Shown: positions 35,603 to 48,697 of the stretch, one piece after another
Position numbering within the stretch: the first letter of the stretch is position 1
Layout of the letters: the number at the start of each line of letters is the position of its first letter
Origin: a virus
Strand: one strand, 5' to 3'
Length of the DNA: 55,220 bases
IMG/VR virus record: IMGVR_UViG_3300044640_001015
Span: 1 to 55,220 of that record
Notes under the pieces: model-generated
Databases searched by the model: none
Seen by the model: the letters and a program-made list of their open reading frames with translations, nothing else
What the model was told of the DNA's origin: nothing
Translations under genes and position numbers: made by a program

Positions 35603-35611
35603 TTTGTCAAG
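35603..35611 (+). repeat. TTTGTCAAG box, copy 1 (module A)
   Basis: Copy of the intergenic box, 12 bases after CCCGCCCC (35584-35591). See findings for the comparison with stoperators. Confidence 0.7.
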
Positions 35612-35620
35612 TTAAGATCG

Positions 35621-35636
35621 TGTGATTAAGGTCACA
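35621..35636. promoter_or_regulatory. CRP/GlxR-type palindrome
   Basis: TGTGA-TTAAGG-TCACA, a perfect match to the CRP family consensus. Its centre lies 52.5 bases before the -10 of the PafBC-type promoter at 35681, the same distance as at 40491-40506. Confidence 0.65.
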
Positions 35637-35663: not shown

Positions 35664-35686
35664 TTGTCAGACCCCTATGCTAGGCT
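35664..35686 (+). promoter_or_regulatory. PafBC-type promoter P1
   Basis: TTGTCAGAC, 8 bases, TAGGCT; extended -10 (TGC). Start of the 35716 gene about 30 bases downstream. Confidence 0.8.
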
Positions 35687-35715
35687 GTAAGCATAGATAA
35701 AGAAAGGGGTTCAAA

Positions 35716-35847
35716 ATGAACTTACTAAATGAAACAGAATTCATCTGTTGCTTTTGTGAAAGCGAAATGGATTCAGAGCAGGTGTTCTGCTGTGATACCT
35801 ATAAAGGTAAAATGACCGTTCAAGAGTTTAACGAATTCTACGGATAA
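35716..35847 (+). CDS. 43-residue Cys-rich protein
   Basis: MNLLNETEFICCFCESEMDS carries Cys in a CC-F-C knuckle and a second pair follows (VFCCDTYKGK), so a zinc-binding fold is likely. AAAGGGG upstream is a strong ribosome site. It is the first gene under PafBC-type promoter P1. Family not recognised. Confidence 0.7.
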   Translation: MNLLNETEFICCFCESEMDSEQVFCCDTYKGKMTVQEFNEFYG

Positions 35848-35850
35848 AAA

Positions 35851-35873
35851 CTGTCAGACCTCTCTGATAGTAT
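35851..35873 (+). promoter_or_regulatory. PafBC-type promoter P2
   Basis: CTGTCAGAC, 8 bases, TAGTAT, preceding the gene at 35907. It begins a few bases after the stop codon of the 43-residue gene. Confidence 0.75.
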
Positions 35874-35906
35874 CAACTTAACAAACAAAAGAAAGGTAGT
35901 CACCAA

Positions 35907-36092
35907 ATGACTTACACTGTAACAAATAAGAGAGATAACATCTCCAATGAATACATCTCTATTCATTCCGCCTTGCAAATGGTTGCAAGTTGCTATGACG
36001 GTGCAGGAATTACCTGCGAGGTTGTCAATAACGAAACAGGCGAACAGGTAGAACTGTATCGCAATCCCCTAACAGGTTGGAGAGTGGCTTAA
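35907..36092 (+). CDS. 61-residue protein, unknown
   Basis: MTYTVTNKRDNISNEYISIH continues with a helix (SALQMVASCYDGAGI) and a strand pair (TCEVVNNETGEQVELYRNPL). It looks like a small folded alpha/beta domain. Ribosome site GAAAGG. Its stop touches the ATG of the next gene. Family not recognised; actinophages carry many such genes in their early arm. Confidence 0.7.
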   Translation: MTYTVTNKRDNISNEYISIHSALQMVASCYDGAGITCEVVNNETGEQVELYRNPLTGWRVA

Positions 36093-36242
36093 ATGGCTTA
36101 CACTAAAATAAAGAATGCACGACTCTTACTAGATGCCGTCAATGGCTTAGAGTTGATGCTAAAGCACGACCCAGAAAATCAGAGAATGATTAACTACTAC
36201 AATACCCAAATCCAAATCTTGACTAGGCGTGTCTACAAATAA
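36093..36242 (+). CDS. 49-residue helical protein
   Basis: MAYTKIKNARLLLDAVNGLE followed by LMLKHDPENQRMINYYNTQI is all-helical and amphipathic, probably a small helical hairpin. The ATG directly follows the TAA of the 61-residue gene, indicating coupling. The stop lies immediately before promoter P3. Function unknown. Confidence 0.7.
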   Translation: MAYTKIKNARLLLDAVNGLELMLKHDPENQRMINYYNTQIQILTRRVYK

Positions 36243-36244
36243 AA

Positions 36245-36267
36245 TTGTCAGACCCCTATGATAAAGT
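36245..36267 (+). promoter_or_regulatory. PafBC-type promoter P3
   Basis: TTGTCAGAC, 8 bases, TAAAGT. It drives the gene at 36299. A reading frame that appears to start here only translates the promoter (MSDPYDK). Confidence 0.8.
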
Positions 36268-36298
36268 GAAACTAACAAACAAACGAAAGGTTGCCACA

Positions 36299-36514
36299 AT
36301 GACAACACTAAACACTAAAGATTACATCAAAGCCCACGATGCATTGGGTTGGATTCAATACCCAAACTCCTATGACAATCGCCTAGCGTATCTATCACTA
36401 GCAACGATTTTAGAAATCTGCATCAACAAGAAAATGGGTATCAACCAAATTCAAGAAATGCTAGATGAAATGACCAAAGGCGAACAAGCCGTACTAGAAA
36501 GTTTGATGAAATAA
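36299..36514 (+). CDS. 71-residue helical protein
   Basis: The start at 36299 is chosen because GAAAGG precedes it and the promoter P3 would lie inside any longer product. MTTLNTKDYIKAHDALGWIQ, then YLSLATILEICINKKMGINQ and IQEMLDEMTKGEQAVLESLM: an all-helical small domain. The stop overlaps the next ATG. No family recognised. Confidence 0.75.
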   Translation: MTTLNTKDYIKAHDALGWIQYPNSYDNRLAYLSLATILEICINKKMGINQIQEMLDEMTKGEQAVLESLMK

Positions 36515-36681
36515 TGATGACAAGAAAAGACTATGTAGCCGTTGCAGAAATTCTAAACGCTTACCACCTAGACATTGAAACACAAACGTTTGAGGATTTG
36601 CTTTCAGACTTTCAAACATTTTTCAAAAGAGATAATTCAAACTTCGACCTAACACGATTCAGAGATGCGGTAATCAAATAA
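36514..36681 (+). CDS. 55-residue helical protein (MTRKDYV family-like)
   Basis: MMTRKDYVAVAEILNAYHLD continues DIETQTFEDLLSDFQTFFKR and ends RFRDAVIK. The start MTRKDYV is shared, from memory, with small proteins common in actinophages. Overlap TAATG with the gene before. All helical, function unknown. Confidence 0.7.
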   Translation: MMTRKDYVAVAEILNAYHLDIETQTFEDLLSDFQTFFKRDNSNFDLTRFRDAVIK

Positions 36682-36833
36682 TGAAATTCGTACACAATAA
36701 AATTGACGGAACTTTCGTAATTGGAATTAGTTTCTCAAATTACTACAGTAAAAAACTAGGTAGAAAAAATACCTCGTTAATTTTTGATCTTGGTTCTCAT
36801 TCGTTTGCATTTGTGTTGAGAGGTGAATACTAA
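36681..36833 (+). CDS. 50-residue beta-rich protein
   Basis: MKFVHNKIDGTFVIGISFSN, then a basic turn and LIFDLGSHSFAFVLRGEY, forms a pattern of four short strands. The ATG overlaps the stop of the previous gene (TAATG), supporting a coupled operon. No family recognised. Confidence 0.65.
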   Translation: MKFVHNKIDGTFVIGISFSNYYSKKLGRKNTSLIFDLGSHSFAFVLRGEY

Positions 36834-36914
36834 ATGAATAGTTTTTATTCTTGGGTTTTAATTTTATCCCTTGCAGGTTTAGTTTATTTGCTTGTAGATA
36901 AATTTACAGACTAA
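36834..36914 (+). CDS. 26-residue membrane peptide
   Basis: MNSFYSWVLILSLAGLVYLL-VDKFTD is a single transmembrane helix with a short charged tail. It begins immediately after the stop of the previous gene and is followed by a terminator. It is too small to classify; the hydrophobic design and coupling support it. Confidence 0.55.
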   Translation: MNSFYSWVLILSLAGLVYLLVDKFTD

Positions 36915-36927
36915 AAAAAACAAAAGC

Positions 36928-36962
36928 TTCTGGGCGTGTCGTTTGACATTCCCAGAAATTTT
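36928..36962 (+). terminator. Terminator of the 35.7-36.9 kb gene group
   Basis: TTCTGGG pairs with CCCAGAA across a 16-base loop and is followed by ATTTTT. The loop is long, but the T run and position after the last gene fit. Confidence 0.65.
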
Positions 36963-36973
36963 TGCCCGCCCCG

Positions 36974-37036
36974 TTTTCCACAGGTTATCCACAGCTGTTA
37001 AGAACTTGTGTATAAGTCACTGAAATCTGTGGATTA
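36974..37036. promoter_or_regulatory. DnaA box group 2
   Basis: TTTTCCACA (36974-36982, one mismatch), TTATCCACA (36985-36993, perfect) and TAATCCACA on the minus strand (37028-37036, one mismatch). It is located right after a CCCGCCCC box (36965-36972). Confidence 0.7.
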
Positions 37037-37081
37037 TTGTTTACCTATTGTTCATCTTAGACACGCCTCTAGATACCAAAA

Positions 37082-37104
37082 ATGTCAGACCCCTATGCTA
37101 AAGT
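37082..37104 (+). promoter_or_regulatory. PafBC-type promoter P4
   Basis: ATGTCAGAC, 8 bases, TAAAGT. The leader to the gene at 37202 is about 90 bases and contains a 16-bp direct repeat. Confidence 0.78.
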
Positions 37105-37129
37105 GAAACTATAAATAAATAGTTAAGTA

Positions 37130-37173
37130 TGAGCCTAGCAAATAATCCTACCTACGGTGAGCCTAGCAAATAA
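37130..37173 (+). repeat. 16-bp direct repeat in a leader
   Basis: TGAGCCTAGCAAATAA occurs at 37130-37145 and 37158-37173, a 28-base period, between promoter P4 and the 37202 gene. It could be an RNA or protein binding element in the leader. Confidence 0.7.
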
Positions 37174-37201
37174 GACTTAACACTAACGAAAGGAATACAA
37201 A

Positions 37202-37387
37202 ATGTATTCACTAGAAGTAGCAAGTCTTCTGATTGGTCAGAAGTACCGTTCAAGCCGTGGATTCTGCGGTGAAATAGTCATGGCTGAAAAGCGTGAAGAC
37301 ATGATGAGCGATAACGCTTATCTAATCTATGTCCGTCAAGACGGATTCCCTTACTACTGGTATTCAACTGTTGAGGTGGTTGCATAA
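37202..37387 (+). CDS. 61-residue protein, unknown
   Basis: MYSLEVASLLIGQKYRSSRG then FCGEIVMAEKREDMMSDNAY and LIYVRQDGFPYYWYSTVEVV. It reads as a small beta-rich domain with a helical start. GAAAGGAA upstream gives a good ribosome site. It is paired with the IF2-N-like gene by a TAATG overlap, so the two may act together. No family recognised. Confidence 0.75.
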   Translation: MYSLEVASLLIGQKYRSSRGFCGEIVMAEKREDMMSDNAYLIYVRQDGFPYYWYSTVEVVA

Positions 37388-37578
37388 TGAGAGTCTATGA
37401 AATTGCTAAAGAATTAAACATTCCGTCAAAAGATGTCAGAATGTATTTAGAATACATTGGGCAACCCGTCAAGAGTGCATCGTCAAGCGTTGAAGATGTA
37501 TTTGGTGAAATTGTTATCAAAAGGATAAACAAGACCTACGAGGAATTTGTGCCTTGTTGGTCATTCCCACCATTCTAA
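37387..37578 (+). CDS. IF2 N-terminal domain-like miniprotein
   Basis: Residues 1-40 (MRVYEIAKELNIPSKDVRMY, then LEYIGQPVKSASSSVEDVFG) closely follow the bacterial IF2_N domain (MRVYELAKELGVSSKEVL..., VKSASSTVE). In bacteria this small helical domain stands at the start of translation factor IF2. Here it is alone, 63 residues, with a short extension (VIKRINKTYEEFVPCWSFPP). It may compete with or mimic IF2 on ribosomes, or be a DNA-binding use of this fold; neither is shown. It overlaps the stop of the 61-residue gene. A DnaA box lies just after the stop. Confidence 0.8.
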   Translation: MRVYEIAKELNIPSKDVRMYLEYIGQPVKSASSSVEDVFGEIVIKRINKTYEEFVPCWSFPPF

Positions 37579-37582
37579 GCGG

Positions 37583-37614
37583 TTATCCACAGGTTATCCC
37601 AAGCCTGTGGACGA
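37583..37614. promoter_or_regulatory. DnaA box group 3
   Basis: TTATCCACA (37583-37591, perfect) and TCGTCCACA on the minus strand (37606-37614, one mismatch). The stretch also forms a hairpin CCACAGG / CCTGTGG, which could act as a terminator for the IF2-N gene with the T run at 37626. Confidence 0.65.
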
Positions 37615-37636
37615 CACGCCGCCCCTTTTTCCTAGC

Positions 37637-37645
37637 TTTGTCAAG
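37637..37645 (+). repeat. TTTGTCAAG box, copy 2
   Basis: Follows CGCCGCCCC and a T run (37618-37630). Same order as the other module copies. Confidence 0.7.
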
Positions 37646-37686
37646 TTACGACACTATTAAAAACAACACCAAAAAATTCACTAAAA

Positions 37687-37709
37687 TTGTCAGACCCCTA
37701 TGCTATGCT
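37687..37709 (+). promoter_or_regulatory. PafBC-type promoter P5
   Basis: TTGTCAGAC, 8 bases, TATGCT; 31 bases before the ATG at 37740. Confidence 0.8.
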
Positions 37710-37739
37710 GAAGGCATACCTACTACGAAAGGAACATTC

Positions 37740-37979
37740 ATGTTCACTTTGCATAACCCAATGAAAGTTATGAACGAACGCTATGTCGTTACATCACACC
37801 CCTGCCCTACTTGCAGTGAAGAAAAAACAGTATCTATTTCTTCTGACCAATTATTTGCATACCGCCAAGGTGGATTAGCCCAAACAGTATTGTCTGACTA
37901 TGATGCAGATGTTCGTGAGCGTTTCATTACAGGTATCTGTGGTGTTTGTTGGGATTCAATGTTTGGAGATGATGTGTAA
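37740..37979 (+). CDS. 79-residue zinc-ribbon protein
   Basis: The ATG at 37740 with GAAAGGA is chosen; longer frames run through the promoter. MFTLHNPMKVMNERYVVTSH is followed by C-P-T-C and a helix (SSDQLFAYRQGGLAQTVLSD, then DVRERFITGICGVCWDSMFG) with a second C-x2-C. This is a small family with two cysteine pairs and a central helix that I recall from many actinophages. It is co-transcribed with the GP88-like gene. Function unknown. Confidence 0.8.
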   Translation: MFTLHNPMKVMNERYVVTSHPCPTCSEEKTVSISSDQLFAYRQGGLAQTVLSDYDADVRERFITGICGVCWDSMFGDDV

Positions 37980-38701
37980 TGACTAAGTTAAAGCGTTCAA
38001 AAGATCGTAAGGTTGCTAACCTTGTTACGCCTAATGGCAAACAAGCCTCTATTGCTAACACGTTTGGATTACCTGCAGGTAAAGCATTCTCTTGCCCTGG
38101 TGCTACATCGGTATGCGAGAAGATATGCTATGCAGGTAAACTTGAAAAAGTATTCAAGGGTACTCGTGAGAACTTATTGCACAATTGGAATTTGCTTAAG
38201 GATGCATCGCAAGATGAGATGTATCTATTAGTTTCAGAAATGATTGCAGAATTCAATGCTGATTGCGAAAGACGTGATGCAGAAAAGTTGTTCCGTATCC
38301 ATTGGGACGGTGACTTCTTTAATGAAGATTACACACTAGCATGGAAACGTGTAATTGCTGACTACCCCGAAATTAAATTCTGGGCTTATACTCGTGTGTC
38401 AGAGTCTGCATTAATTCTAAAAGACATTGAAAACCTATCTCTATACTTCTCAACCGATTCAGAGAATGTAGAAACTGGTAAGACGTTAGCAAAAGATGAA
38501 GGCATAAAGTTAGCGTACCTATCTCAGACATTTGCAATTGGTAAAGCAGAACTAAAAGAAATTATTGGTAAGTCTGGTGTGCCATGCCCTGAGAATAATA
38601 AAAAGATACCGCTAATTTCTACTAACGGCAGTGCTTGTGTATCGTGTGGGCAATGCGTATTTGCCAGGAATAACATTGTATTCAGTGCAAGTAAGTCATA
38701 A
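37979..38701 (+). CDS. GP88-like protein
   Basis: This 240-residue protein has the signature of the actinophage gene product 88 family: NTFGLPAGKAFSCPGATSVC followed by EKICYAGKLEKVFKGTRENL, HWDGDFFNEDYTLAWKRVI and, near the end, GSACVSCGQCVFARNNI. Seven or more Cys in C-x6-C-x3-C and C-x2-C-x2-C patterns suggest metal or Fe-S binding. The role in phage biology is not known. It follows the zinc-ribbon gene with a TAATG overlap. It is one of the most conserved of early-arm genes in actinophages, from memory. Confidence 0.85.
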   Translation: MTKLKRSKDRKVANLVTPNGKQASIANTFGLPAGKAFSCPGATSVCEKICYAGKLEKVFKGTRENLLHNWNLLKDASQDEMYLLVSEMIAEFNADCERRDAEKLFRIHWDGDFFNEDYTLAWKRVIADYPEIKFWAYTRVSESALILKDIENLSLYFSTDSENVETGKTLAKDEGIKLAYLSQTFAIGKAELKEIIGKSGVPCPENNKKIPLISTNGSACVSCGQCVFARNNIVFSASKS

Positions 38702-38703
38702 AG

Positions 38704-38755
38704 CTTGACAAAGCCACCGAAAGGTGGTCGGGCACTTTTTCCTGTGTTTGTCAAG
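38704..38755. repeat. TTTGTCAAG box, copies 3 (inverted) and 4
   Basis: CTTGACAAA at 38704-38712 and TTTGTCAAG at 38747-38755 face each other and enclose a hairpin CCACC-GAAA-GGTGG and a T run (38736-38740). The two arms could pair, so this copy may also terminate the GP88-like gene. Confidence 0.65.
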
Positions 38756-38793
38756 TTAAGAAAATTAAGAGAAAGTCACTGAAAACACTGAAA

Positions 38794-38816
38794 TTGTCAG
38801 ACCCTTGTGGTAGGTT
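38794..38816 (+). promoter_or_regulatory. PafBC-type promoter P6, leaderless
   Basis: TTGTCAGAC, 8 bases, TAGGTT, then six bases and the ATG at 38823. The start codon coincides with the expected transcription start. Confidence 0.8.
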
Positions 38817-38822
38817 ATACCT

Positions 38823-38957
38823 ATGATGAAATTTACTACAACCCCAGAACAACTTCGAGCAAGGCTTGAGTTGCGTAGGAGTAATGCAGCAGTAAAGCAT
38901 CGTAACAAAAAGAAATACACACGAAAGACAAAACACAAAAACCTACAGGGAGAATAA
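38823..38957 (+). CDS. 44-residue very basic protein, leaderless
   Basis: MMKFTTTPEQLRARLELRRS, then NAAVKHRNKKKYTRKTKHKN, is rich in Arg and Lys, a likely nucleic-acid binder. The ATG lies six bases after a -10 hexamer, without a Shine-Dalgarno. An ATG three bases later is in frame as well. Its end overlaps the GGGAGAA ribosome site of the next gene. Confidence 0.65.
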   Translation: MMKFTTTPEQLRARLELRRSNAAVKHRNKKKYTRKTKHKNLQGE

Positions 38958-38958
38958 A

Positions 38959-39243
38959 ATGGGACTTAACTTTGCAACAGAGTTATCCACTATGGATACT
39001 ATGCCAATTGAAGCACAGATCAACACACACTTACAATACAATTTCTATCCACCTGTACCATCCTCAATGGTACAGCCTTGCGTTGAAGCAATTGATGCTT
39101 ATCTAGAAGAAGACTTTGATCGCCAAATTGAAATGCCACAAGGAGTATCTTATCGTGGCAGTGACTATGCACCTGCACACGCTATTGTTGAGCAACATCG
39201 CTTGGGACCTTGGTGTGAGCCAATTGATTGGGATGAGGAATAA
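38959..39243 (+). CDS. 94-residue protein, unknown
   Basis: MGLNFATELSTMDTMPIEAQ, with a helical centre (CVEAIDAYLEEDFDRQIEMP) and an acidic C-terminus (HRLGPWCEPIDWDEE). GGGAGAA supports the ATG. The protein is acidic and probably soluble. Family not recognised. Promoter P7 follows the stop directly. Confidence 0.75.
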   Translation: MGLNFATELSTMDTMPIEAQINTHLQYNFYPPVPSSMVQPCVEAIDAYLEEDFDRQIEMPQGVSYRGSDYAPAHAIVEQHRLGPWCEPIDWDEE

Positions 39244-39244
39244 A

Positions 39245-39267
39245 ATGTCAGACCCTTGTGCTAAGAT
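39245..39267 (+). promoter_or_regulatory. PafBC-type promoter P7
   Basis: ATGTCAGAC, 8 bases, TAAGAT; overlaps the stop codon region of the previous gene and drives 39293. Confidence 0.78.
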
Positions 39268-39292
39268 AAATCTAACCTACTAAGGAGAACGA

Positions 39293-39409
39293 ATGAGTGA
39301 ACTACTAATAAACCTATTTGAGGGTGTAATAGATGAAAAGGCGATTGAGAAATTGTCTACCGAAGAATTAGAAGCAATTAACAAAATGCTAACGGAAGCA
39401 GGTTACTAA
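39293..39409 (+). CDS. 38-residue helical protein
   Basis: MSELLINLFEGVIDEKAIEK followed by LSTEELEAINKMLTEAGY: two amphipathic helices, as in many tiny phage regulators. Ribosome site AAGGAG is strong. It is the first gene of the group under P7. Confidence 0.65.
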   Translation: MSELLINLFEGVIDEKAIEKLSTEELEAINKMLTEAGY

Positions 39410-39410
39410 A

Positions 39411-39749
39411 ATGGGTGCAAGAATTAATTTTGTATTTGATGATGGTACAGATAGTCTAGTTAATCTTTATTCCCATTGGGGTGAGTCTGATTGGGAAAAT
39501 GATTTAATAGGTGCATTAGTACACGCACAGAAACGCAAGGGTGACTATTCATACTTTACCCGTATGGTTATCTCACACTTAATTAAAGACTATGTATTAG
39601 ATGAAACTGGTTTTGGTATCTATGCAATTAGCCGTTCAGAAATTGGTAACAATTTTGATAAGACAGTTGTATTAGATTTAGTAAATAACACATTGACAGA
39701 TTTAGATAATGATAGTACAGTTGAATTGTATGGAAAGGTATTTGCATAA
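39411..39749 (+). CDS. 112-residue protein, unknown
   Basis: MGARINFVFDDGTDSLVNLY starts with a beta hairpin; SHWGESDWENDLIGALVHAQ and a YFTRMVISHLIKDYV helix follow, and the C-terminus has strand pairs (DKTVVLDLVNNTLTDLDND). It resembles a small alpha/beta fold found in several actinophages. Coupled to the previous gene (two-base gap) and to the next by TAATG. Function unknown. Confidence 0.75.
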   Translation: MGARINFVFDDGTDSLVNLYSHWGESDWENDLIGALVHAQKRKGDYSYFTRMVISHLIKDYVLDETGFGIYAISRSEIGNNFDKTVVLDLVNNTLTDLDNDSTVELYGKVFA

Positions 39750-39898
39750 TGAGTCAAATGAAAGATTTATACGGTATTTTAACAGAGTGGTATCCAGATG
39801 GAAACTACACAGAAGAACAATTGTGGGAAGCAATTGCAGAATCACAAGGTATGGACTATGCAGAAATTGCAGACGGAGATTTAGCAGAATGGCTCTAG
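39749..39898 (+). CDS. 49-residue acidic helical protein
   Basis: MSQMKDLYGILTEWYPDGNY then TEEQLWEAIAESQGMDYAEI: predicted helices with many acidic residues. TAATG overlap with the previous gene, and the next ATG lies inside its last codons, so it is part of a tightly packed group. No family recognised. Confidence 0.7.
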   Translation: MSQMKDLYGILTEWYPDGNYTEEQLWEAIAESQGMDYAEIADGDLAEWL

Positions 39899-39996
39899 CA
39901 CTAGCATTTACCGCAGGAATATTTGCAGGTATCATAATCGTAGGAATTGTTCTAAACCTAACCATACTAAAACAAGATGATTGGTACAAGAGATGA
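39889..39996 (+). CDS. 35-residue membrane protein
   Basis: MALALAFTAGIFAGIIIVGI-VLNLTILKQDDWYKR is one transmembrane helix and a basic end. It overlaps its neighbours by 10 and 4 bases. A small membrane effector is likely; the exact role is unknown. Confidence 0.65.
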   Translation: MALALAFTAGIFAGIIIVGIVLNLTILKQDDWYKR

Positions 39997-40115
39997 AACT
40001 ATTTAATCGTAAGCAAGAAATGTCAGACCCATACGCTATACTAGACAAGTTGATGTCAGAAATGGCATCAAATAAAACATACATTGAATACCTGCGCCTA
40101 AGAGAAAGTGTATAG
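39993..40115 (+). CDS. 40-residue protein carrying a promoter inside
   Basis: MKLFNRKQEMSDPYAILDKL then MSEMASNKTYIEYLRLRESV, helical. The codons for MSDPYAI are also PafBC-type promoter P8. ATGA overlap with the membrane gene before. It may be real or be the leader of the next gene; coupling favours real. Confidence 0.55.
   Translation: MKLFNRKQEMSDPYAILDKLMSEMASNKTYIEYLRLRESV
40020..40042 (+). promoter_or_regulatory. PafBC-type promoter P8, inside a gene
   Basis: ATGTCAGAC, 8 bases, TATACT. It lies in the 39993-40115 reading frame and could drive the genes at 40116 and 40231. Confidence 0.65.
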
Positions 40116-40247
40116 TTGGAAATCTTTTTATTTATTGTAATTGTGTTATTCTTATTTGGAGTCTTATCTGCCAATGGTATTGGTGAGGGAGACCCAAAAC
40201 ATACTCACGAAGACAAGGGAGAAAATTTTGATGATTACAGACTATAA
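40116..40247 (+). CDS. 43-residue membrane protein, TTG start
   Basis: From TTG 40116 the product is MEIFLFIVIVLFLFGVLSAN, then IGEGDPKHTHEDKGENFDDY: an N-terminal membrane helix or signal anchor with an acidic, His-containing tail. It begins at the stop of the previous gene. The TTG start is the first in frame; the hydrophobic helix would be lost with any later start. The next gene's ATG lies within its last codons. Confidence 0.6.
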   Translation: MEIFLFIVIVLFLFGVLSANGIGEGDPKHTHEDKGENFDDYRL

Positions 40248-40446
40248 AGAAATAGATAGACTGGTTGGAATGACAATTGAGCCTGGCGATATGGTAAAGC
40301 TTCCCAACAATGATATTGTTACCATTACTCGCACAGAGCCAACGCAAGATGGATATGATTTATTCTTCTTAGATTTATTTGAAGATGATGAGTTGTGCTA
40401 TTCTCTATCCGATGATGATTGTGTATCACTTCTTCAGTTTGACTGA
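40231..40446 (+). CDS. 71-residue acidic protein
   Basis: MITDYKEIDRLVGMTIEPGD then MVKLPNNDIVTITRTEPTQD and FLDLFEDDELCYSLSDDDC: beta-rich with an acidic tail, Tudor/SH3-like by pattern. The ATG at 40231 with GGGAGAA is preferred to the earlier in-frame start at 40141, which would overlap the membrane gene. Function unknown. Confidence 0.7.
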   Translation: MITDYKEIDRLVGMTIEPGDMVKLPNNDIVTITRTEPTQDGYDLFFLDLFEDDELCYSLSDDDCVSLLQFD

Positions 40447-40453
40447 GGAAGTG

Positions 40454-40506
40454 CCCGCCCCAATTTTAAAGCTTTGTCAAGTCTTACGAATGTGATTAGG
40501 ATCACA
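40454..40506. repeat. Module copy: CCCGCCCC, TTTGTCAAG and CRP-type palindrome
   Basis: CCCGCCCC at 40454-40461, TTTGTCAAG at 40473-40481 and TGTGA-TTAGGA-TCACA at 40491-40506. The palindrome centre is 52.5 bases before the -10 at 40551, exactly as in the copy at 35621-35636. Confidence 0.75.
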
Positions 40507-40533
40507 CTGAAATTATCACGGAAACCTAATAAA

Positions 40534-40556
40534 TTGTCAGACCCGTATGCTAAGAT
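40534..40556 (+). promoter_or_regulatory. PafBC-type promoter P9
   Basis: TTGTCAGAC, 8 bases, TAAGAT with TGC before it. It drives the 51-residue gene at 40591. Confidence 0.8.
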
Positions 40557-40590
40557 GTTACCATAACAACAACAAAGAAAAGAGAAGCAA

Positions 40591-40746
40591 ATGGATAAAA
40601 TCCAAACACCAACTGTTGGCTCACAGTTCACAACTGCTAAGTCAGGCGTAACTGGCACAGTTCAGGAAATCATCAAGAATCAGAATGGTACTTTGCGTAT
40701 CAAACTTGATGTAAACGGTCAAGACCGTTGGACTACTGTTAAGTAG
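40591..40746 (+). CDS. 51-residue beta-rich protein
   Basis: MDKIQTPTVGSQFTTAKSGV, then TGTVQEIIKNQNGTLRIKLD and VNGQDRWTTV, reads as a small SH3-like barrel. AAAAGAGAAG lies before the ATG. It is a single-gene unit with a promoter and terminator of its own, hinting at higher expression. No family recognised. Confidence 0.75.
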   Translation: MDKIQTPTVGSQFTTAKSGVTGTVQEIIKNQNGTLRIKLDVNGQDRWTTVK

Positions 40747-40759
40747 TTAAATAAGTTTA

Positions 40760-40790
40760 GGTGGGGTGTTCCTTACCCTTGCACCCCACC
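40760..40790 (+). terminator. Stem-loop after the 51-residue gene
   Basis: GGTGGGGTG pairs with CACCCCACC (13-base loop), flanked by TTTA and TTAAAA. The T run is short, yet the stem is GC-rich and the position is right. Confidence 0.7.
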
Positions 40791-40796
40791 TTAAAA

Positions 40797-40819
40797 CTGT
40801 CAGACCTCTCTGCTAAGAT
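40797..40819 (+). promoter_or_regulatory. PafBC-type promoter P10
   Basis: CTGTCAGAC, 8 bases, TAAGAT, 31 bases before the ATG at 40850. Confidence 0.78.
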
Positions 40820-40849
40820 AAACTTACCTACAAAAGAAAGAAGAAAACT

Positions 40850-41326
40850 ATGGGACTAGATATGTACCTTCGTGCAAGCGAATACGTTTACCGTCACAAC
40901 TTTAATCGTCAAACTGATGAAGACACGATTAACCCAATCTTTAATGAGATTGTTAAGAATCTTGAATTAGAAGATGTAATTGACAGTTCTGGCTTTGCTG
41001 GAATTACTGTTGATGTACCAATGGGCTACTGGCGTAAGTCAAATATGATTCATCATTGGTTTGTAAATAACTTAGCAGATGGTGTTGATGAATGTCAGCC
41101 AATCATTGTTCGTAGAGAAGATTTAGAGCAGTTGAAAGAAACCTGCATTGAAGTAATTGCTAATCCAGAATCAGCAGAAGAATTATTACCAACAGGTAGT
41201 GGATTCTTCTTTGGCTCTACTGACTATGATGAATATTACTTTGGAGATTTGAATGATACTTTAGGCATTATCACTAGATGCCTTGAAAGTAAATTCGACT
41301 ATTTTGAGTATCAAGCCTCTTGGTAG
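40850..41326 (+). CDS. MGLDMYL-type conserved phage protein
   Basis: This 158-residue protein starts MGLDMYLRASEYVYRHNFNR and has the typical motif GYWRKSNMIHHWFVNNLADG followed by a DECQPIIVRREDLEQLKETC helix and SGFFFGSTDYDEYYFGDLND. The 'MGLDMYL ... YWRKAN.IH.WFV ... C' pattern is shared by proteins in many phages and bacteria, with unknown function. The conserved Trp, His, Cys residues could bind a ligand. It is a single-gene unit. The tRNA follows. Confidence 0.85.
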   Translation: MGLDMYLRASEYVYRHNFNRQTDEDTINPIFNEIVKNLELEDVIDSSGFAGITVDVPMGYWRKSNMIHHWFVNNLADGVDECQPIIVRREDLEQLKETCIEVIANPESAEELLPTGSGFFFGSTDYDEYYFGDLNDTLGIITRCLESKFDYFEYQASW

Positions 41327-41421
41327 TAGGTTACATCCGAAACCAAAACCTGCCACAGCCACGCAGGTAAAATAAAGGGGACAGTCCTAAGCACCATACT
41401 CAGACTATAAACTGCTTACCT

Positions 41422-41495
41422 GGTCTGTTAGCTCAATTGGTTAGAGCACTACCCTGTCACGGTAGAGGTTGTGGGTTCAAGTCCCATACAGATCG
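41422..41495 (+). tRNA. tRNA-Asp (anticodon GTC)
   Basis: A complete cloverleaf of 74 bases: acceptor GGTCTGT/ACAGATC, D arm GCTC...GAGC, anticodon stem CTACC/GGTAG around CTGTCAC with anticodon GTC, and T arm GTGGG-TTCAAGT-CCCAT. The discriminator is G and CCA is not encoded. Asp codons are very common in the acidic early proteins of this phage. It lies in the 41327-41625 gap after the MGLDMYL gene. Confidence 0.95.
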
Positions 41496-41505
41496 CAAAA
41501 AGGTG

Positions 41506-41532
41506 CCCGCCCAATTTTCAAGATTTGTCAAG
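41506..41532 (+). repeat. Module copy: CCCGCCC and TTTGTCAAG
   Basis: CCCGCCC at 41506-41512 and TTTGTCAAG at 41524-41532, just after the tRNA. A degenerate palindrome (ACATTACTACAAGGTCAC) follows, then TCAC-x-GAA repeats. Confidence 0.7.
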
Positions 41533-41572
41533 CTTTAAGACATTACTACAAGGTCACGGGAATCACTGAAAA

Positions 41573-41595
41573 ATGTCACACCTCTGTGGTATGAT
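41573..41595 (+). promoter_or_regulatory. PafBC-type promoter P11
   Basis: ATGTCACAC, 8 bases, TATGAT; 31 bases before the ATG at 41626. A variant with CAC in place of GAC. Confidence 0.72.
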
Positions 41596-41625
41596 TTCAT
41601 CATAACCTACTAGAAAGAAGTTAAA

Positions 41626-42393
41626 ATGCCAAACTGGGTATTCAATTCACTTGTTGTATCAGGTGAGCAATCAGAATTAGATAAGATGGTTGAGCAATTA
41701 AATCAACCGTTCACTATGCACCATCCTGTTCATAAATTTGTTGATGGCAAATACACACAGGTTGCTGACTTTGAAGAATACAATAATCCTGTCTTTGCTT
41801 TTTGGAACATTGTAAAACCAACAGACCTTAAATCATACTATGAAAAAGAAGTCTTTACTAAGAAGCAACTTGATGGTGAAGAATTTATGGCAGAGTTTGT
41901 TCGCTCTATGAGAGAAGACCAAGACTGGTATCACTGGAACTGCCGTAACTGGGGAACTAAGTGGGACGTAGCAGTGTCTAATGACAATGAGTATCCTAAC
42001 ACTATTAAAACAGTTAATGATGATGGTTCTATCTTGTACCAGTTTGAAACCGCTTGGTCTCCTGTTGGTGAGGCTCTACTAAAACTATCAGAACAGTACC
42101 CAACTCTTGAGTTTGACTATGAGTATGAGGAAGAGCAAGGATGGGGTGGTAGTTGCACATTCTTGGGTGGAGAAGAGACTCGCTCTGATGAGTATGACAT
42201 TCCAATGTCTCACGCTGACTACAAGGATAGAGATAAAGAATGTATCTGTGAGTACGGAGACCCTGAAAACGGGTATGAAGATTGCCCTGTGGATACCACT
42301 AAATTCAAGTGGGATTCAGAACTAGAGGAATGGGTAGAATTGTCAGACCTCTCTGATACACTAGTTTCAACAAACAACCTACAAGGAGAATAA
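41626..42393 (+). CDS. Api92/YubB-like ferredoxin-fold protein
   Basis: This 255-residue protein begins MPNWVFNSLVVSGEQSELDK and contains CRNWGTKWDVAVSNDNEYPN and ILYQFETAWSPVGEALLKLS, the signature of the Api92/YubB-like ferredoxin-fold family found in phages and plasmids (PNW.N.L.V.G..., NWGTKWD). The fold resembles ferredoxin but has no obvious Fe-S site; function is unknown. The C-terminal end is a Cys and Asp-rich tail (CICEYGDPENGYEDCPVDTT) whose last codons host promoter P12. Confidence 0.87.
   Translation: MPNWVFNSLVVSGEQSELDKMVEQLNQPFTMHHPVHKFVDGKYTQVADFEEYNNPVFAFWNIVKPTDLKSYYEKEVFTKKQLDGEEFMAEFVRSMREDQDWYHWNCRNWGTKWDVAVSNDNEYPNTIKTVNDDGSILYQFETAWSPVGEALLKLSEQYPTLEFDYEYEEEQGWGGSCTFLGGEETRSDEYDIPMSHADYKDRDKECICEYGDPENGYEDCPVDTTKFKWDSELEEWVELSDLSDTLVSTNNLQGE
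42340..42362 (+). promoter_or_regulatory. PafBC-type promoter P12, inside a gene end
   Basis: TTGTCAGAC, 8 bases, TACACT, in the coding sequence for LSDLSDTL of the previous protein. It drives the gene at 42396. Confidence 0.75.
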
Positions 42394-42395
42394 AC

Positions 42396-42905
42396 GTGGA
42401 ATTCACAACAAGTGAGCCAACATTCGGAATACCAGCAACTATAACACCAATGACAGACCAAGTGGCAGTAACACCAGCGTATGACCCAAAGGCAACTATC
42501 TTAGTACGCAAGGGCTACTACTATGGCACACCTTCAGATTCAAAGTTTGAAGTAGAAAATGCAGACGACATTTCCAGAACTTACTGGAGGTTAGATGCAC
42601 TACAAGAAACTAACAACCGTAACTCACGAGCACAAGACAAGTTAAAAGATTACCTTGTTGAAAACTTTGATGAGATTGGTGAAGAACACGCAACTGAAAT
42701 TGCAAACATCTTTAGCATTGACTTGTCAAAGGAAGTTGAAGTTGAGTTCAATGTAACAATCAAGGCAACAGTTTCTATTCCAGTTAATGAAGATGTGTCT
42801 GACTTAAGTGTCTATGATTTTGACATTGAGATTTCTTCAAATGAATCTAAGTATGAGATTCAAGAGTTTGATGCAGACATTGATTCAATAGACGAAAAAT
42901 ACTAG
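42396..42905 (+). CDS. 169-residue acidic protein, GTG start
   Basis: Starts at GTG 42396 (AAGGAGAA upstream). MEFTTSEPTFGIPATITPMT leads to a beta part, then a helix (LDALQETNNRNSRAQDKLKD, then YLVENFDEIGEEHATEIANI) and a C-terminal strand-rich acidic part (EVEVEFNVTIKATVSIPVNE). It resembles small acidic proteins of actinophage early arms. Function unknown. Confidence 0.78.
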   Translation: MEFTTSEPTFGIPATITPMTDQVAVTPAYDPKATILVRKGYYYGTPSDSKFEVENADDISRTYWRLDALQETNNRNSRAQDKLKDYLVENFDEIGEEHATEIANIFSIDLSKEVEVEFNVTIKATVSIPVNEDVSDLSVYDFDIEISSNESKYEIQEFDADIDSIDEKY

Positions 42906-42976
42906 GTTTCCTAGTAGGTAGGAAGTGCTGGACACCACACTAAACTGTCCACCACCTAATAGAAAAGAGAAATAAA

Positions 42977-43138
42977 ATGGCAAAGAAGCTATTTATCGCA
43001 GAAGAAAAGTGGAACACACGTTTTGGTAAGAGCCAGCGTGTAGTTGTGCGAGATGCTAACGGACACTTTGTTGATAACGTGTCTAAGCGTCAGATGAAAA
43101 ACAATGAACGTGAACTACCCTATGTGGCTGTTCGCTAA
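42977..43138 (+). CDS. 53-residue basic protein
   Basis: MAKKLFIAEEKWNTRFGKSQ then RVVVRDANGHFVDNVSKRQM and NNERELPYVAVR: small beta-rich, basic domain, likely to bind nucleic acid. AGAAAAGAGAAAT precedes the ATG. It is closed by a strong terminator. No family recognised. Confidence 0.72.
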   Translation: MAKKLFIAEEKWNTRFGKSQRVVVRDANGHFVDNVSKRQMKNNERELPYVAVR

Positions 43139-43154
43139 TTAAATAAATAGATTT

Positions 43155-43183
43155 ACCCTCTGTCTTCCCTGCAGAGGGTTTTT
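43155..43183 (+). terminator. Intrinsic terminator
   Basis: ACCCTCTG pairs with CAGAGGGT around a 9-base loop, followed by TTTTT. A classical rho-independent terminator after the 53-residue gene. Confidence 0.92.
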
Positions 43184-43189
43184 CTATGC

Positions 43190-43242
43190 CCCGCCCCATT
43201 TTTATAGATTTGTCAAGCTTTTATGATGTGATCTAAATAACA
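43190..43242. repeat. Module copy: CCCGCCCC, TTTGTCAAG and degenerate CRP-type site
   Basis: CCCGCCCC at 43190-43197, TTTGTCAAG at 43209-43217, TGTGA-TCTAAA-TAACA at 43227-43242 (one mismatch). The palindrome centre is 51.5 bases before the -10 at 43286. Confidence 0.7.
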
Positions 43243-43268
43243 CTGAAATCATGGGGTATCTAATAAAA

Positions 43269-43291
43269 TTGTCAGACCTATGGTGTATAGT
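43269..43291 (+). promoter_or_regulatory. PafBC-type promoter P13
   Basis: TTGTCAGAC, 8 bases, TATAGT. Drives the DUF932 gene at 43328. Confidence 0.8.
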
Positions 43292-43327
43292 AAGACTATT
43301 AAACAAACTACCTCTAAGGAGAAAAAC

Positions 43328-44317
43328 GTGGCTGATGCAGTCGAAATTATTAACGGTGTAGGTTCTATGTATTCATTTCGTGAACCAGCGTGGCATGGTC
43401 TAGGAACTGTTGTTACAGAAGAACACACAACAAGTGAAGTTATGGACATAGCACACTTATCAAATTGGAATGTTCGTCTTGAAGATGTTCAACTACCTGA
43501 AGATTACACTTCAAGCAAGTCTAACTTCATGGTTGTTCGTGACCACCCAGAAGACGGACACCCAGATGTTCTAGCAGTTGTTGGTGAACGTTACCAGACT
43601 TTGCAGAATGAAGAACTATTTGCTTTTGCAGATAATCTTCTTGACGGTGCTCGTTGGGAAACAGCAGGTTCTCTAAAGAATGGTCGTGTTGTCTTTGGTT
43701 CTCTTGCTCTTGAGCGTGAGACCGTACTAGACCCAAATGGCGTTGCAGATGTTGTTAAGTCATACTTGCTTGTGAATACATCACATGACGGTTCACTTGC
43801 TGTTCGTGCATCGGTAACACCTGTTCGTGTTGTGTGTGCAAATACTCTTGACATGGCTCTTAGAGGTGTTAAGCAGTCTTTCAAGATGCGTCACACTTCA
43901 ACACTTGAGGGTCGTATCTTGGTTGCTCGTGAAGCATTAGGTCTTGCCAATACTTACATGGACGAGTTTGACAAAATGGCTCAAGAACTTATTGAAAAGG
44001 AAATCACTAAGGAAACTTTCAATAAGATTGTTGCAACTGCCTATCCAATGCCTAGCAAAGATACCAAAGGTGCTATGACTAAGTGGGAAAACAAAATTGA
44101 ATTGCTAGATGAAATCTTTGTTTCAGATACTAACTCAATGATTAACAATACCGCTTGGGGTGCTTTCAATACTTTGACAGAACGCCTTGATTGGTATCGC
44201 TCCGCTCGTGGTGGTAACAATGAGGGAATCCTTGCAAGTGCATCGGGCTTTGACCCAGTTATTACAGCAGAGAAAAACAAACTGCTATCCATTGTGAAAG
44301 AAATTGCTTTCGCATAA
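43328..44317 (+). CDS. DUF932/TIGR03299 phage-plasmid protein
   Basis: GTG 43328 with AAGGAGAA is the best start; the earlier in-frame ATG lies in the promoter. The 329-residue protein contains the family's marks: SFREPAWHGLGTVVTEEHT, NFMVVRDHPEDGHPDVLAVV, GSLKNGRVVFGSLALERETV, VKSYLLVNTSHDGSLAVRAS and VRVVCANTLDMALRGVKQSF. DUF932 proteins are widespread in phages and plasmids; they are encoded close to replication or early genes. The biochemical function is unproven. The single-gene unit under P13 is one of the largest in this arm. Confidence 0.92.
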   Translation: MADAVEIINGVGSMYSFREPAWHGLGTVVTEEHTTSEVMDIAHLSNWNVRLEDVQLPEDYTSSKSNFMVVRDHPEDGHPDVLAVVGERYQTLQNEELFAFADNLLDGARWETAGSLKNGRVVFGSLALERETVLDPNGVADVVKSYLLVNTSHDGSLAVRASVTPVRVVCANTLDMALRGVKQSFKMRHTSTLEGRILVAREALGLANTYMDEFDKMAQELIEKEITKETFNKIVATAYPMPSKDTKGAMTKWENKIELLDEIFVSDTNSMINNTAWGAFNTLTERLDWYRSARGGNNEGILASASGFDPVITAEKNKLLSIVKEIAFA

Positions 44318-44510
44318 ATCAAAATTCCTGAGCATGAATTAAAACTGCTCACCCACTTGACAAAGCTTGAAAATTGTGGGCGGGCATTCTTAATAAGATA
44401 GCTAGTCTCTTTACGACATTAAGTGCAAAATCACGGAAATCACGAAACCTGGTGTAAATTGTCACACCCTTGTGGTAGGATACACAGTATCAACCTACAA
44501 AAGGACAAAC
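44318..44510. other. Intergenic module with inverted box and promoter P14
   Basis: CTTGACAAA at 44356-44364 is followed by AGCTTGAAAATTGTGGGCGG, the inverted form of the CCCGCCCC-TTTGTCAAG box. The TCACGGAAATCACGAAA repeat follows at 44431-44447, then promoter P14. Confidence 0.7.
44459..44481 (+). promoter_or_regulatory. PafBC-type promoter P14
   Basis: TTGTCACAC, 8 bases, TAGGAT, 30 bases before the ATG at 44511. Variant with CAC. Confidence 0.72.
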
Positions 44511-44681
44511 ATGATTGACACAAATGACGAACTCTTAAATGAGTTAGCATACCACTTTGTTGATTTGCATAATGTTGGTGGTATTGAATTAGAACAATGG
44601 GATACCGCCTATCAATTCGTAAAGCATTTTTACAACACAGAAGAAGTAGTAGAGATTAGAATAGGAAGCAAAAAAGTATGA
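44511..44681 (+). CDS. 56-residue acidic protein
   Basis: MIDTNDELLNELAYHFVDLH then NVGGIELEQWDTAYQFVKHF and YNTEEVVEIRIGSKKV; the first in-frame ATG after AAAGGAC is at 44511. Helical, acidic. First gene of a seven-gene coupled group (44511-46027). No family recognised. Confidence 0.7.
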   Translation: MIDTNDELLNELAYHFVDLHNVGGIELEQWDTAYQFVKHFYNTEEVVEIRIGSKKV

Positions 44682-44935
44682 CATACCTTGTAGCAACAAC
44701 AGAAGTTATCTATGATGAGCAAGACTTAATTAAGATGATGTTAGATACAGGTGAGTATGGTATTCATGGACACCCTATTTCACATGAGGCTATGATTGAA
44801 TTTGTTAAAGATCAAGAGTGGCAGATTGAGCACCACCTTTTCCTTGATAAGTTTGATGTACCTGCACAGATTAGCATTAAAGATGAGGACGGCACAGACC
44901 TATTCTTTGCCAAGAACAAGTTGGAGATAAAGTAA
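44678..44935 (+). CDS. 85-residue protein, unknown
   Basis: MTYLVATTEVIYDEQDLIKM begins with a strand, and DTGEYGIHGHPISHEAMIEF with EWQIEHHLFLDKFDVPAQIS follow. His-rich in the middle. ATGA overlap with the previous gene and one-base overlap with the next gene. Family not recognised. Confidence 0.75.
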   Translation: MTYLVATTEVIYDEQDLIKMMLDTGEYGIHGHPISHEAMIEFVKDQEWQIEHHLFLDKFDVPAQISIKDEDGTDLFFAKNKLEIK

Positions 44936-45117
44936 TGTATAACTACAATGTAGAGTTTGTATTAGAGGCTATGGTTATGATCACAAGTGTTTCTTTTGAT
45001 GAGCCAGATTTACCTGATGATTTTATTATTCAAGAAGCAAGGAATAACATAATGAGTTATTACAAGATTGACCCAGAAGTCTTGCACCTACAAGACGTGA
45101 TAGTACACGAGGTATAG
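44935..45117 (+). CDS. 60-residue acidic protein
   Basis: MYNYNVEFVLEAMVMITSVS then FDEPDLPDDFIIQEARNNIM; strand then helix. Similar start style (strand followed by an acidic helix) to the neighbours, which may be diverged duplicates. No family recognised. Confidence 0.72.
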   Translation: MYNYNVEFVLEAMVMITSVSFDEPDLPDDFIIQEARNNIMSYYKIDPEVLHLQDVIVHEV

Positions 45118-45119
45118 TA

Positions 45120-45362
45120 ATGAAACTAAGAGGAATCTTTGAGGGAACGTTTGAATCAGTATGGAGTATGGACGTACCTGATCAACTATGGAATTTGTAT
45201 TTATTGCATAACCCTGATTTTGATGAGAATGATCGTGACGACATTCAAGAGATGTGGGACCATTTTAAGAGTCTTGGTTGCTATGATGAGATTGACGACA
45301 CCGTAGACACAGATGTAATTATGACAGGTATAGAAACTTATGGAGTAGAGGTAGAAGTATGA
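45120..45362 (+). CDS. 80-residue acidic protein
   Basis: MKLRGIFEGTFESVWSMDVP, then DQLWNLYLLHNPDFDENDRD and a DTVDTDVIMTGIETYGVEVEV end. Acidic alpha/beta. Coupled by small gaps or overlaps to both neighbours. No family recognised. Confidence 0.75.
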   Translation: MKLRGIFEGTFESVWSMDVPDQLWNLYLLHNPDFDENDRDDIQEMWDHFKSLGCYDEIDDTVDTDVIMTGIETYGVEVEV

Positions 45363-45583
45363 GTAAGCAATATCATTGGGTAGTTGTATATGATGAACAT
45401 TGGGGAGCCTTTATGGTTGATGCCGAATCAGAGTTTGATCGTGACAAGATTATGTATGATAAAGAAACAGGACGTTGGGAGTGGCTGGACCCTGAATCAG
45501 AAGAAGAAGCTGAATATTACAGGCTAGAAGAAATCCTGGCTTATAACCTAACAAGACTTGACTTAACCGCAGAAAGGGTATAG
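45359..45583 (+). CDS. 74-residue acidic protein
   Basis: MSKQYHWVVVYDEHWGAFMV then DAESEFDRDKIMYDKETGRW and EEEAEYYRLEEILAYNLTRL. Strand start and helical acidic end, as in neighbours. ATGA overlap with the previous gene. No family recognised. Confidence 0.75.
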   Translation: MSKQYHWVVVYDEHWGAFMVDAESEFDRDKIMYDKETGRWEWLDPESEEEAEYYRLEEILAYNLTRLDLTAERV

Positions 45584-45592
45584 GATACGCAT

Positions 45593-46027
45593 ATGAAAAC
45601 ATTAGAAGGCGTAACAGTAGAATACACACAGACAATCCCTACAAGTAAGCAAATGCCAGAGTTTTATGTGTGGCAAGAGGGTGCAGAGTCTTATGCAACT
45701 ATCACATACTTGGACCGTTTGGTTGAAGTAGAGCGTTGTGGTGAAATGCACTTGACATTACCAGAACTAGTTAATGGTGAACTATCTGATGAGGGTGCAA
45801 CCATTGTTAGATATTCAGACGACTTAGAGGCAGAGGGTATCAATGATGATATTCAGTTGCTGCAGTTTATTAAAACTATTAGTAATAGTGGATTTGAAAT
45901 CTATCGTATGAATCCTTGGTGGGAACTATTTGCACACAATGAAGATATGGGTGGAATCTATGACACATTCTATGAAGCAATTGATGCTGGTATTGACTAC
46001 ATCACAGACGATAGCAATTGGGAGTAG
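45593..46027 (+). CDS. 144-residue acidic protein
   Basis: MKTLEGVTVEYTQTIPTSKQ, then EFYVWQEGAESYATITYLDR, QLLQFIKTISNSGFEIYRMN and TFYEAIDAGIDYITDDSNWE. The last part reads like a small helical cap common in phage proteins with a YNPWWEL-like motif (MNPWWELFAHNEDMG). Function unknown. GAAAGG supports the ATG. Confidence 0.78.
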   Translation: MKTLEGVTVEYTQTIPTSKQMPEFYVWQEGAESYATITYLDRLVEVERCGEMHLTLPELVNGELSDEGATIVRYSDDLEAEGINDDIQLLQFIKTISNSGFEIYRMNPWWELFAHNEDMGGIYDTFYEAIDAGIDYITDDSNWE

Positions 46028-46029
46028 AG

Positions 46030-46212
46030 ATGCAAGAAGAGATTAATAAGTTTATTAGACATACCATTGAAAACTTAGAGGGTGCCCTGGAAAAACAAGA
46101 CGACAAGTTAACTTGGGCAGTACTAACTAACTTATCAGACGTGTTGGACACCTACATAGAGCCATTAGAATTGTCAGTCCTATGTGCTACACTAGGAGGT
46201 TCAGGAGATTAA
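46030..46212 (+). CDS. 60-residue helical protein
   Basis: Start at ATG 46030 (GGGAGTAGAG before it) rather than an upstream TTG in frame. MQEEINKFIRHTIENLEGAL, then EKQDDKLTWAVLTNLSDVLD. Helical bundle. Its C-terminal codons include promoter P15. No family recognised. Confidence 0.7.
   Translation: MQEEINKFIRHTIENLEGALEKQDDKLTWAVLTNLSDVLDTYIEPLELSVLCATLGGSGD
46171..46193 (+). promoter_or_regulatory. PafBC-type promoter P15, inside a gene end
   Basis: TTGTCAGTC, 8 bases, TACACT, in the 3' end of the 46030 gene. The gene at 46213 begins 20 bases downstream. Confidence 0.68.
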
Positions 46213-48259: not shown

Positions 48260-48301
48260 TGTTTTTTGTAAGTGATAAAGCTATTAGATATGGGGTATAC
48301 A

Positions 48302-48697
48302 ATGAAGACTAGACATATAGCCCTTGTTGCTCACGATAACAAGAAACAAGACCTTTTGGAGTGGTGTAAGATTAATCATTCTACCCTTAGTAAGCATCAT
48401 CTATATGCTACTGGTAACACTGGTATCCTTTTGCAAAATGAACTTCACCTGCCAATTACTAAGTTTCTAAGTGGACCTTTAGGTGGAGACCAACAAATTG
48501 GTGCTTCCATATCTGAGGGCATAATTGACATCCTTATCTTCTTCTGGGATCCATTAGAGGCTCAACCGCATGACCCTGATGTTAAGGCTCTATTAAGATT
48601 AGCAACTCTTTGGAATGCTGGTGTGGCAGTTAATAAGGCAACTGCTGATATGATGATATCTTCCCAGATATTTGAAAAAAGGAAGGGTGAGAAGTAA
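48302..48697 (+). CDS. mgsA: Methylglyoxal synthase
   Basis: This 131-residue enzyme would turn dihydroxyacetone phosphate into methylglyoxal and phosphate. The whole fold is present: [71 protein letters not shown] and [20 protein letters not shown]. Residues matching E. coli MgsA His19, Asp71, Asp91, His98 and Asp101 are His11, Asp63, Asp83, His90 and Asp93, all conserved. The ATG at 48302 was chosen (GGGG upstream); an in-frame GTG at 48272 would add ten residues. The gene lies in a coupled group of tiny proteins, with the stop overlapping the next ATG. It is unusual in a phage. Confidence 0.95.

Follow-up and report, generated by a model that had tools for sequence, protein, structure and literature searches.

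We analyzed IMG/VR virus record IMGVR_UViG_3300044640_001015 over its complete length, a linear sequence 55,220 bases long with a G+C content of 37% (the window), and found that its small rightward genes are preceded by an array of promoters built like actinobacterial DNA-damage promoters. At least fourteen such promoters stand in a row, and the array is found again in a large group of uncultured phages, which is new here. The RecA-independent DNA-damage promoters (RecA-NDp) of actinobacteria have a −26 element with the consensus TTGTCRGTG, located 8 bases before a TANNNT −10 element. The initial annotation had read fifteen sites of the window as promoters of this type under the control of PafBC. 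We consider it probable that the phage carries, in this array, DNA-damage promoters of host type that would be read through host PafBC, because canonical and variant elements are mixed in the phage arrays, the variant is used before repair genes, pafBC is found in actinobacterial genomes, and the phage records searched yielded neither a WYL protein nor a sigma factor. The mixing of forms and the use before host repair genes lend strong support to the annotated promoter type; control by PafBC is the part that we infer, and one of the fifteen sites is doubtful.

Geometry of the promoter array

The sites were located by pattern search and are listed below, the position of each being the base that precedes TGTCA.

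Site 1: 35664..35686, + strand, TTGTCAGAC-N8-TAGGCT; start codon 35716
Site 2: 35851..35873, + strand, CTGTCAGAC-N8-TAGTAT; start codon 35907
Site 3: 36245..36267, + strand, TTGTCAGAC-N8-TAAAGT; start codon 36299
Site 4: 37082..37104, + strand, ATGTCAGAC-N8-TAAAGT; first start codon thereafter at 37202, 97 bases past the −10
Site 5: 37687..37709, + strand, TTGTCAGAC-N8-TATGCT; start codon 37740
Site 6: 38794..38816, + strand, TTGTCAGAC-N8-TAGGTT; start codon 38823, 6 bases past the −10
Site 7: 39245..39267, + strand, ATGTCAGAC-N8-TAAGAT; start codon 39293
Site 8: 40020..40042, + strand, ATGTCAGAC-N8-TATACT; no TG, doubtful; start codon 100 bases on, no clear gene
Site 9: 40534..40556, + strand, TTGTCAGAC-N8-TAAGAT; start codon 40591
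Site 10: 40797..40819, + strand, CTGTCAGAC-N8-TAAGAT; start codon 40850
Site 11: 41573..41595, + strand, ATGTCACAC-N8-TATGAT; start codon 41626 (gene with a DUF1281_C domain)
Site 12: 42340..42362, + strand, TTGTCAGAC-N8-TACACT; lies in the 3' end of the upstream reading frame; start codon 42396
Site 13: 43269..43291, + strand, TTGTCAGAC-N8-TATAGT; no extended −10 TG; start codon 43328 (DUF932 gene)
Site 14: 44459..44481, + strand, TTGTCACAC-N8-TAGGAT; start codon 44511
Site 15: 46171..46193, + strand, TTGTCAGTC-N8-TACACT; start codon 46213

The geometry described in the initial annotation held in every respect: all fifteen sites were recovered at the annotated positions on the + strand, TANNNT follows at exactly 8 bases in 15/15, and a TG stands one base ahead of the −10 in 13 (the exceptions are the sites at 40020 and 43269). 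The absence of a −35 element at the usual spot was likewise borne out, with the best matches at spacings of 16-18 reaching 2-4 of 6 bases, the same as at random positions. TGTCA is present in all fifteen −26 elements, which are of the types TGTCAGAC (12 sites), TGTCACAC (two) and TGTCAGTC (one), and the canonical GTG half is present in none. In 12 of the 15 sites the start codon lies 19-36 bases past the −10. Site 6 possibly gives a nearly leaderless transcript. Site 8 falls within a 40-residue frame (39993-40115) and may therefore be coding sequence.

Chance was ruled out as the origin of the array by shuffling and by the fixed spacing. The pattern TGTCASAC-N8-TANNNT has 14 forward and 0 reverse matches in the window, with 0 matches to the reversed-pattern control, and the TGTCAGTC site is the fifteenth; 200 dinucleotide shuffles of the window, searched on both strands, gave a mean of 0.17 sites and a maximum of 2. 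On the + strand between 35,001 and 47,000, TGTCA[GC][AT]C occurs 15 times, each time with TANNNT at a spacing of 8, and the other spacings from 0-19 give 0-6 occurrences each.

Arrays of related phages and their upstream elements

To follow the motif beyond the window, as the initial annotation had proposed, we used a capsid-protein scan of IMG/VR, in which 525 related stretches were found and the best 80 kept. TGTCASAC-N8-TANNNT was then searched in 50 records, of which 19 had been selected by capsid and 31 from among the motif matches listed, the latter being biased by that choice. Among the 19 capsid-chosen records, 14 have 1-16 sites each, and the reversed-pattern control totals 3 over all 19. 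The annotated "dense array" was therefore an apt term and even an understatement, since such arrays recur in many related phages. The five capsid-chosen relatives lacking sites (G005, G006, G008, G011 and G012) are uninformative either way, because the array genes tested were found in none of them (G012 was searched except for its last 541 bases) and the sequences of G005 and G008 break off on either side of the array. Relatives of the capsid protein are present in each of the six other array-bearing phages that are mostly covered by sequence, which indicates one capsid lineage rather than several independent inventions.

With a wider pattern, the window together with 20 array regions that were fetched gave 227 sites. 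After 38 pieces had been added, duplicates dropped and the final bases restricted to AC, TG or TC, the set from the window and its relatives comprised 243 distinct sites, with AGAC in 164, AGTG in 39, AGTC in 21, GGTG in 8, ACAC in 7 and others in 4; the canonical RGTG form thus accounts for 47/243. Canonical TGTCRGTG and TGTCAGAC (AGAC) sites neighbor each other in one array, for example in L243, L245, L253 and L255. When only TGTC and an extended −10 (TG-N-TANNNT) were required, the window and 58 pieces contained 247 sites at a spacing of 8, and 6-17 at each of the spacings 5-7 and 9-12. The four free bases after TGTC in this spacing-8 set were AGAC (132), AGTG (22), AGTC (19), AGCC (12), AGTA (8), ACAC (6), GGTG (5) and rarer ones. 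Many of the relatives' sites have TATAAT as the −10. Comparison with six related arrays gave 93% conservation for TGTCAGAC, 97% for TA, 98% for the final T and 89% for TG, against 73% for the spacer, 64% for the inner −10 and 69% for the upstream flank; these figures are indicative, since BLAST alignments may anchor on the sites or pair non-orthologous ones.

Some sites are accompanied by a second element. Actinobacterial CRP/GlxR proteins bind the palindrome TGTGA-N6-TCACA, and in 44 of the 243 sites an exact copy of it begins between −66 and −39 relative to TGTC, a count made without a shuffle control and covering the window array and loci L241-L260 and L294-L331. The starts peak at −54 (16 sites), −44 (9) and −65/−64 (7), approximately one helical turn apart. 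Two of the fifteen window sites have the palindrome:

35621..35636, no strand: CRP-like palindrome TGTGA-N6-TCACA; its first base is 44 bases ahead of the TGTC in site 1
40491..40506, no strand: CRP-like palindrome TGTGA-N6-TCACA; its first base is 44 bases ahead of the TGTC in site 9

This phasing is consistent with possible activation by a host CRP-type protein at the sites so equipped. Another repeat, TTTGTCAAG, occurs at 35603, 37637, 38747, 40473, 41524 and 43209, which is 48-62 bases before six of the sites, and is preceded in most cases by a CCGCCC-rich stretch; it may be part of a terminator or another binding site. In addition, CTTGACAAA is found at 38704 and 44356 of the window.

Host repair genes, candidate regulator and phage setting

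The use of the TGTCAGAC form by actinobacteria themselves was assessed in their genomes. TGTCAGAC-N8-TATNNT, searched in 396 genomes sampled from the phylum, gave 36 matches versus 17 for the control (hand sums). Thirty loci from these matches were read, some representing one place twice, and several pointed to the class of genome G339. In this class, which was chosen through such matches, TGTCAGAC-N8-TANNNT gave 84 matches, spread over 24 of the 27 genomes (a hand sum with one palindromic place counted twice), versus 0 for the control. Inspection of 30 loci of the class by eye placed four sites before recA, three before radA, two before rmuC and three or four before LysM genes, the rest being other or unclear. 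Profile hidden Markov models (HMMs) identified above cut-off, after such sites, RecA (L388), a 96-residue part of a UvrD-type helicase (L360), RmuC (L396) and a LysM protein (L398); RadA (L357, 355 of 403 bits) and a 634-residue part of an error-prone polymerase (L353) scored below cut-off. In G250, a member of the class from which approximately 390 kb were fetched, pafB and pafC are adjacent and the motif lies ahead of recA (L388); the fetched sequence has one site of the TGTCAGAC form and one canonical TGTCRGTG site. Judged from these positions, TGTCAGAC-N8-TANNNT behaves like a promoter motif of the DNA-damage type in pafBC-bearing actinobacteria, and PafBC would be its predicted reader in the class of G339.

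In three actinobacterial genomes, TGTCAGAC-N8-TATNNT is followed by a Cas9-like frame 30-51 bases past its first base (L363 of G365, L368 of G332 and L369 of G386). One of the three frames was HMM-confirmed, and a CRISPR system is possibly under a DNA-damage-type promoter in these genomes.

A phage-encoded regulator was sought by domain search. No WYL domain was found in the window or in any of 50 phage records (47 from IMG/VR and 3 Streptomyces phages, many of them fragments), and a phage-encoded PafBC was rejected on these grounds. A regulon with its own phage sigma factor was also rejected, as Sigma70_r2 was found in 0/50 of the same records, the search covering region 2 only. Because both domains are missing from the 50 records, the activator is probably the host's.

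The phage hosts were approached through WhiB, which is taken as a mark of actinophages (PMC10202952; PMC6802176). The 96.7-kb relative G009, with 59 of the 81 reading frames listed for it scanned, encodes WhiB together with a RecA/UvsX-like recombinase, a DnaB-type helicase and a primase. A WhiB-like signature, which misses members of the family, was present in 8 of 219 other loci, including the array regions L252 and L254; composed by eye, it was found neither in the window nor in eight other record sets, yet Pfam finds WhiB in one of these sets, G009. Because WhiB is taken to mark actinophages, the host is most likely an actinobacterium.

One Actinomycetota metagenome-assembled genome, G051, has a relative of the capsid protein at 45% identity (a single match from one genome-contig scan). 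It also encodes a WYL/WCX protein and, immediately after it, a protein bearing the helix-turn-helix domain of PafC, the latter cut by the locus end, and a PafB relative is present in 145 of 151 genomes of its order, which we treated as the candidate host order. In this order, TGTCRGTG-N8-TANNNT gave approximately 407 matches versus 124 for the control (hand sums), with matches in 149 of 151 genomes. Among 30 loci with this canonical motif, one site precedes recA and one radA (both above the HMM cut-off), two precede dnaN and several LysM genes by eye (one LysM protein HMM-confirmed), and several others are probably chance matches. The same order was rejected as a user of the TGTCAGAC form, for which 41 matches were found versus 48 for the control (hand sums).

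The capsid protein and ribonucleotide reductase of the window show distant likeness to those of Stanwilliamsviridae phages of Streptomyces: the capsid protein is 44% identical to that of Wakanda and 40% to that of Jay2Jay, and the ribonucleotide reductase DNA is ~70% identical to that of Squillium over 3% of the query. The window differs from these three genomes in its promoter sites, which are lacking in all of them. Its structural genes occupy the minus strand up to ~34 kb, small rightward genes begin at 35.7 kb, and leftward genes resume at 49.6 kb. The array genes encode mostly small, uncharacterized proteins, together with members of the GP88, DUF932 and DUF1281_C families identified by domain search, and an "early" or "takeover" label for them is a guess from position and size. 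Two features within the array are:

37979-38701: GP88-family gene, downstream of site 5
41422-41496, + strand: tRNA-Asp (GTC), inside the promoter array, downstream of site 10

Beyond the array, a phage-borne methylglyoxal synthase is encoded at 48272-48697 (+; NF003559, 1.4e-59) and an IMP dehydrogenase/GMP reductase at 52983-54011 (−; PF00478, 3e-96). A 172-residue protein at 49064-49582 (+) has a weak match to the proteasome beta subunit (PF00227, 2.5e-6; TIGR03634, 1.9e-8, far below cut-off), and relatives of it are present in other phages of the group.

Competing explanations and consequences

In mycobacteria, according to one study, PafBC is switched on by single-stranded DNA and is positioned between SigA domain 4 and the promoter, with PafB reading the −26 motif (PMC11804915). 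If the phage array is read in the same manner, single-stranded DNA arising in infection, from phage replication or host-DNA breakdown, would activate the host PafBC heterodimer. With PafBC docked between domain 4 of the host's housekeeping sigma factor and the −26 element, RNA polymerase would read the short gene or operon just downstream of each site, perhaps assisted by a host CRP-type regulator where a phased palindrome lies upstream. Both the binding of PafBC to these phage sites and the nature of the trigger are predictions from the analysis. Because PafBC needs single-stranded DNA, delayed-early or middle rather than immediate-early expression would be expected.

The array shares with RecA-NDp/PafBC promoters the TGTC(R) half, the N8 spacing, TANNNT and the lack of a −35, and its AGAC form precedes DNA-repair genes in one actinobacterial class. 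It differs in having GAC, CAC or GTC in the window where the consensus of mycobacteria has GTG, in the TG-extended −10 that most window sites add, and in driving phage genes from a dense array. Coupling of phage expression to the host DNA-damage response is also known from prophage genes controlled by LexA, such as tum of coliphage 186; LexA represses, whereas PafBC activates, and a few induction genes are involved there as opposed to ~15 promoters here.

Several observations weigh against reading the array as a set of PafBC promoters. None of the window sites has the canonical RGTG half, and the extended −10 of most sites might work without PafBC. The one candidate host order tested has no excess of TGTCAGAC sites, and no link was found between the class that uses this form and these phages. 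The three Streptomyces-infecting relatives scanned (Wakanda, Jay2Jay and Squillium) have no such sites, and the phages tested share one capsid lineage, so that a conserved activator encoded by the phages and resembling neither WYL nor sigma proteins is possible.

Such an activator is the core of the best-surviving alternative, which we regard as unlikely. Bacteriophage T4 encodes activators of its middle promoters, MotA and AsiA, that recruit host RNA polymerase by sigma appropriation, and an analogous phage protein other than PafBC, whatever its fold, could bind the −26 box and do the same. The layouts are similar, as T4 middle promoters also occur in many copies and combine an extended −10 with an activator box near −30 that replaces the −35. 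The presence of the array in one capsid lineage, with its absence from the three Streptomyces relatives, is what a phage-specific factor would predict as well. The box, however, is the host DNA-damage motif in both its RGTG and AGAC forms. T4 supplies its own activators, whereas here no candidate turned up, although no systematic search for one was made, and WYL and Sigma70_r2 are absent from the 50 records.

We find it distinctly improbable that the sites are ordinary promoters of the extended −10 type, recognized by the housekeeping sigma factor, in which TGTCAGAC contributes little or remains from host promoters that were captured. The TG in 13/15 window sites and the TATAAT of many relatives fit such promoters, but TGTCAGAC is conserved far above the upstream flank (93% versus 69% identity) and its spacing is exact. 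An array of operators or stoperators, as formed by the asymmetric repressor sites of mycobacteriophage L5, would likewise consist of oriented, asymmetric sites repeated in short intergenic gaps, but it is scarcely credible here, since the fixed 8 bases to the −10 and the 19-36 bases to the start codon in 12/15 sites mark promoters, and the motif is a host promoter motif.

The reading through host PafBC thus stands as the probable one. A broader proposal is offered tentatively, with doubt slightly outweighing confidence: widespread phages may run a block of middle genes from host PafBC in place of any sigma factor or activator that they encode themselves, with single-stranded DNA from phage replication or host-DNA breakdown opening the array as a positive feedback on timing and a CRP-type second input reporting the state of the cell. 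In the open-licence literature, as represented by titles and the starts of abstracts, no report of phage promoters under PafBC was found; the novelty would lie in the use of host-type PafBC promoters by phages as a dense array. With the TGTCAGAC element, actinobacterial DNA-damage promoters would have a second form, one that searches with the canonical GTG would miss. If the reading is correct, these phages would have a regulon built on host sigma adaptation, with PafBC as a contact point between phage and host stress control, and uncultured actinophages would possess a timing switch leading from single-stranded DNA through PafBC to phage genes.

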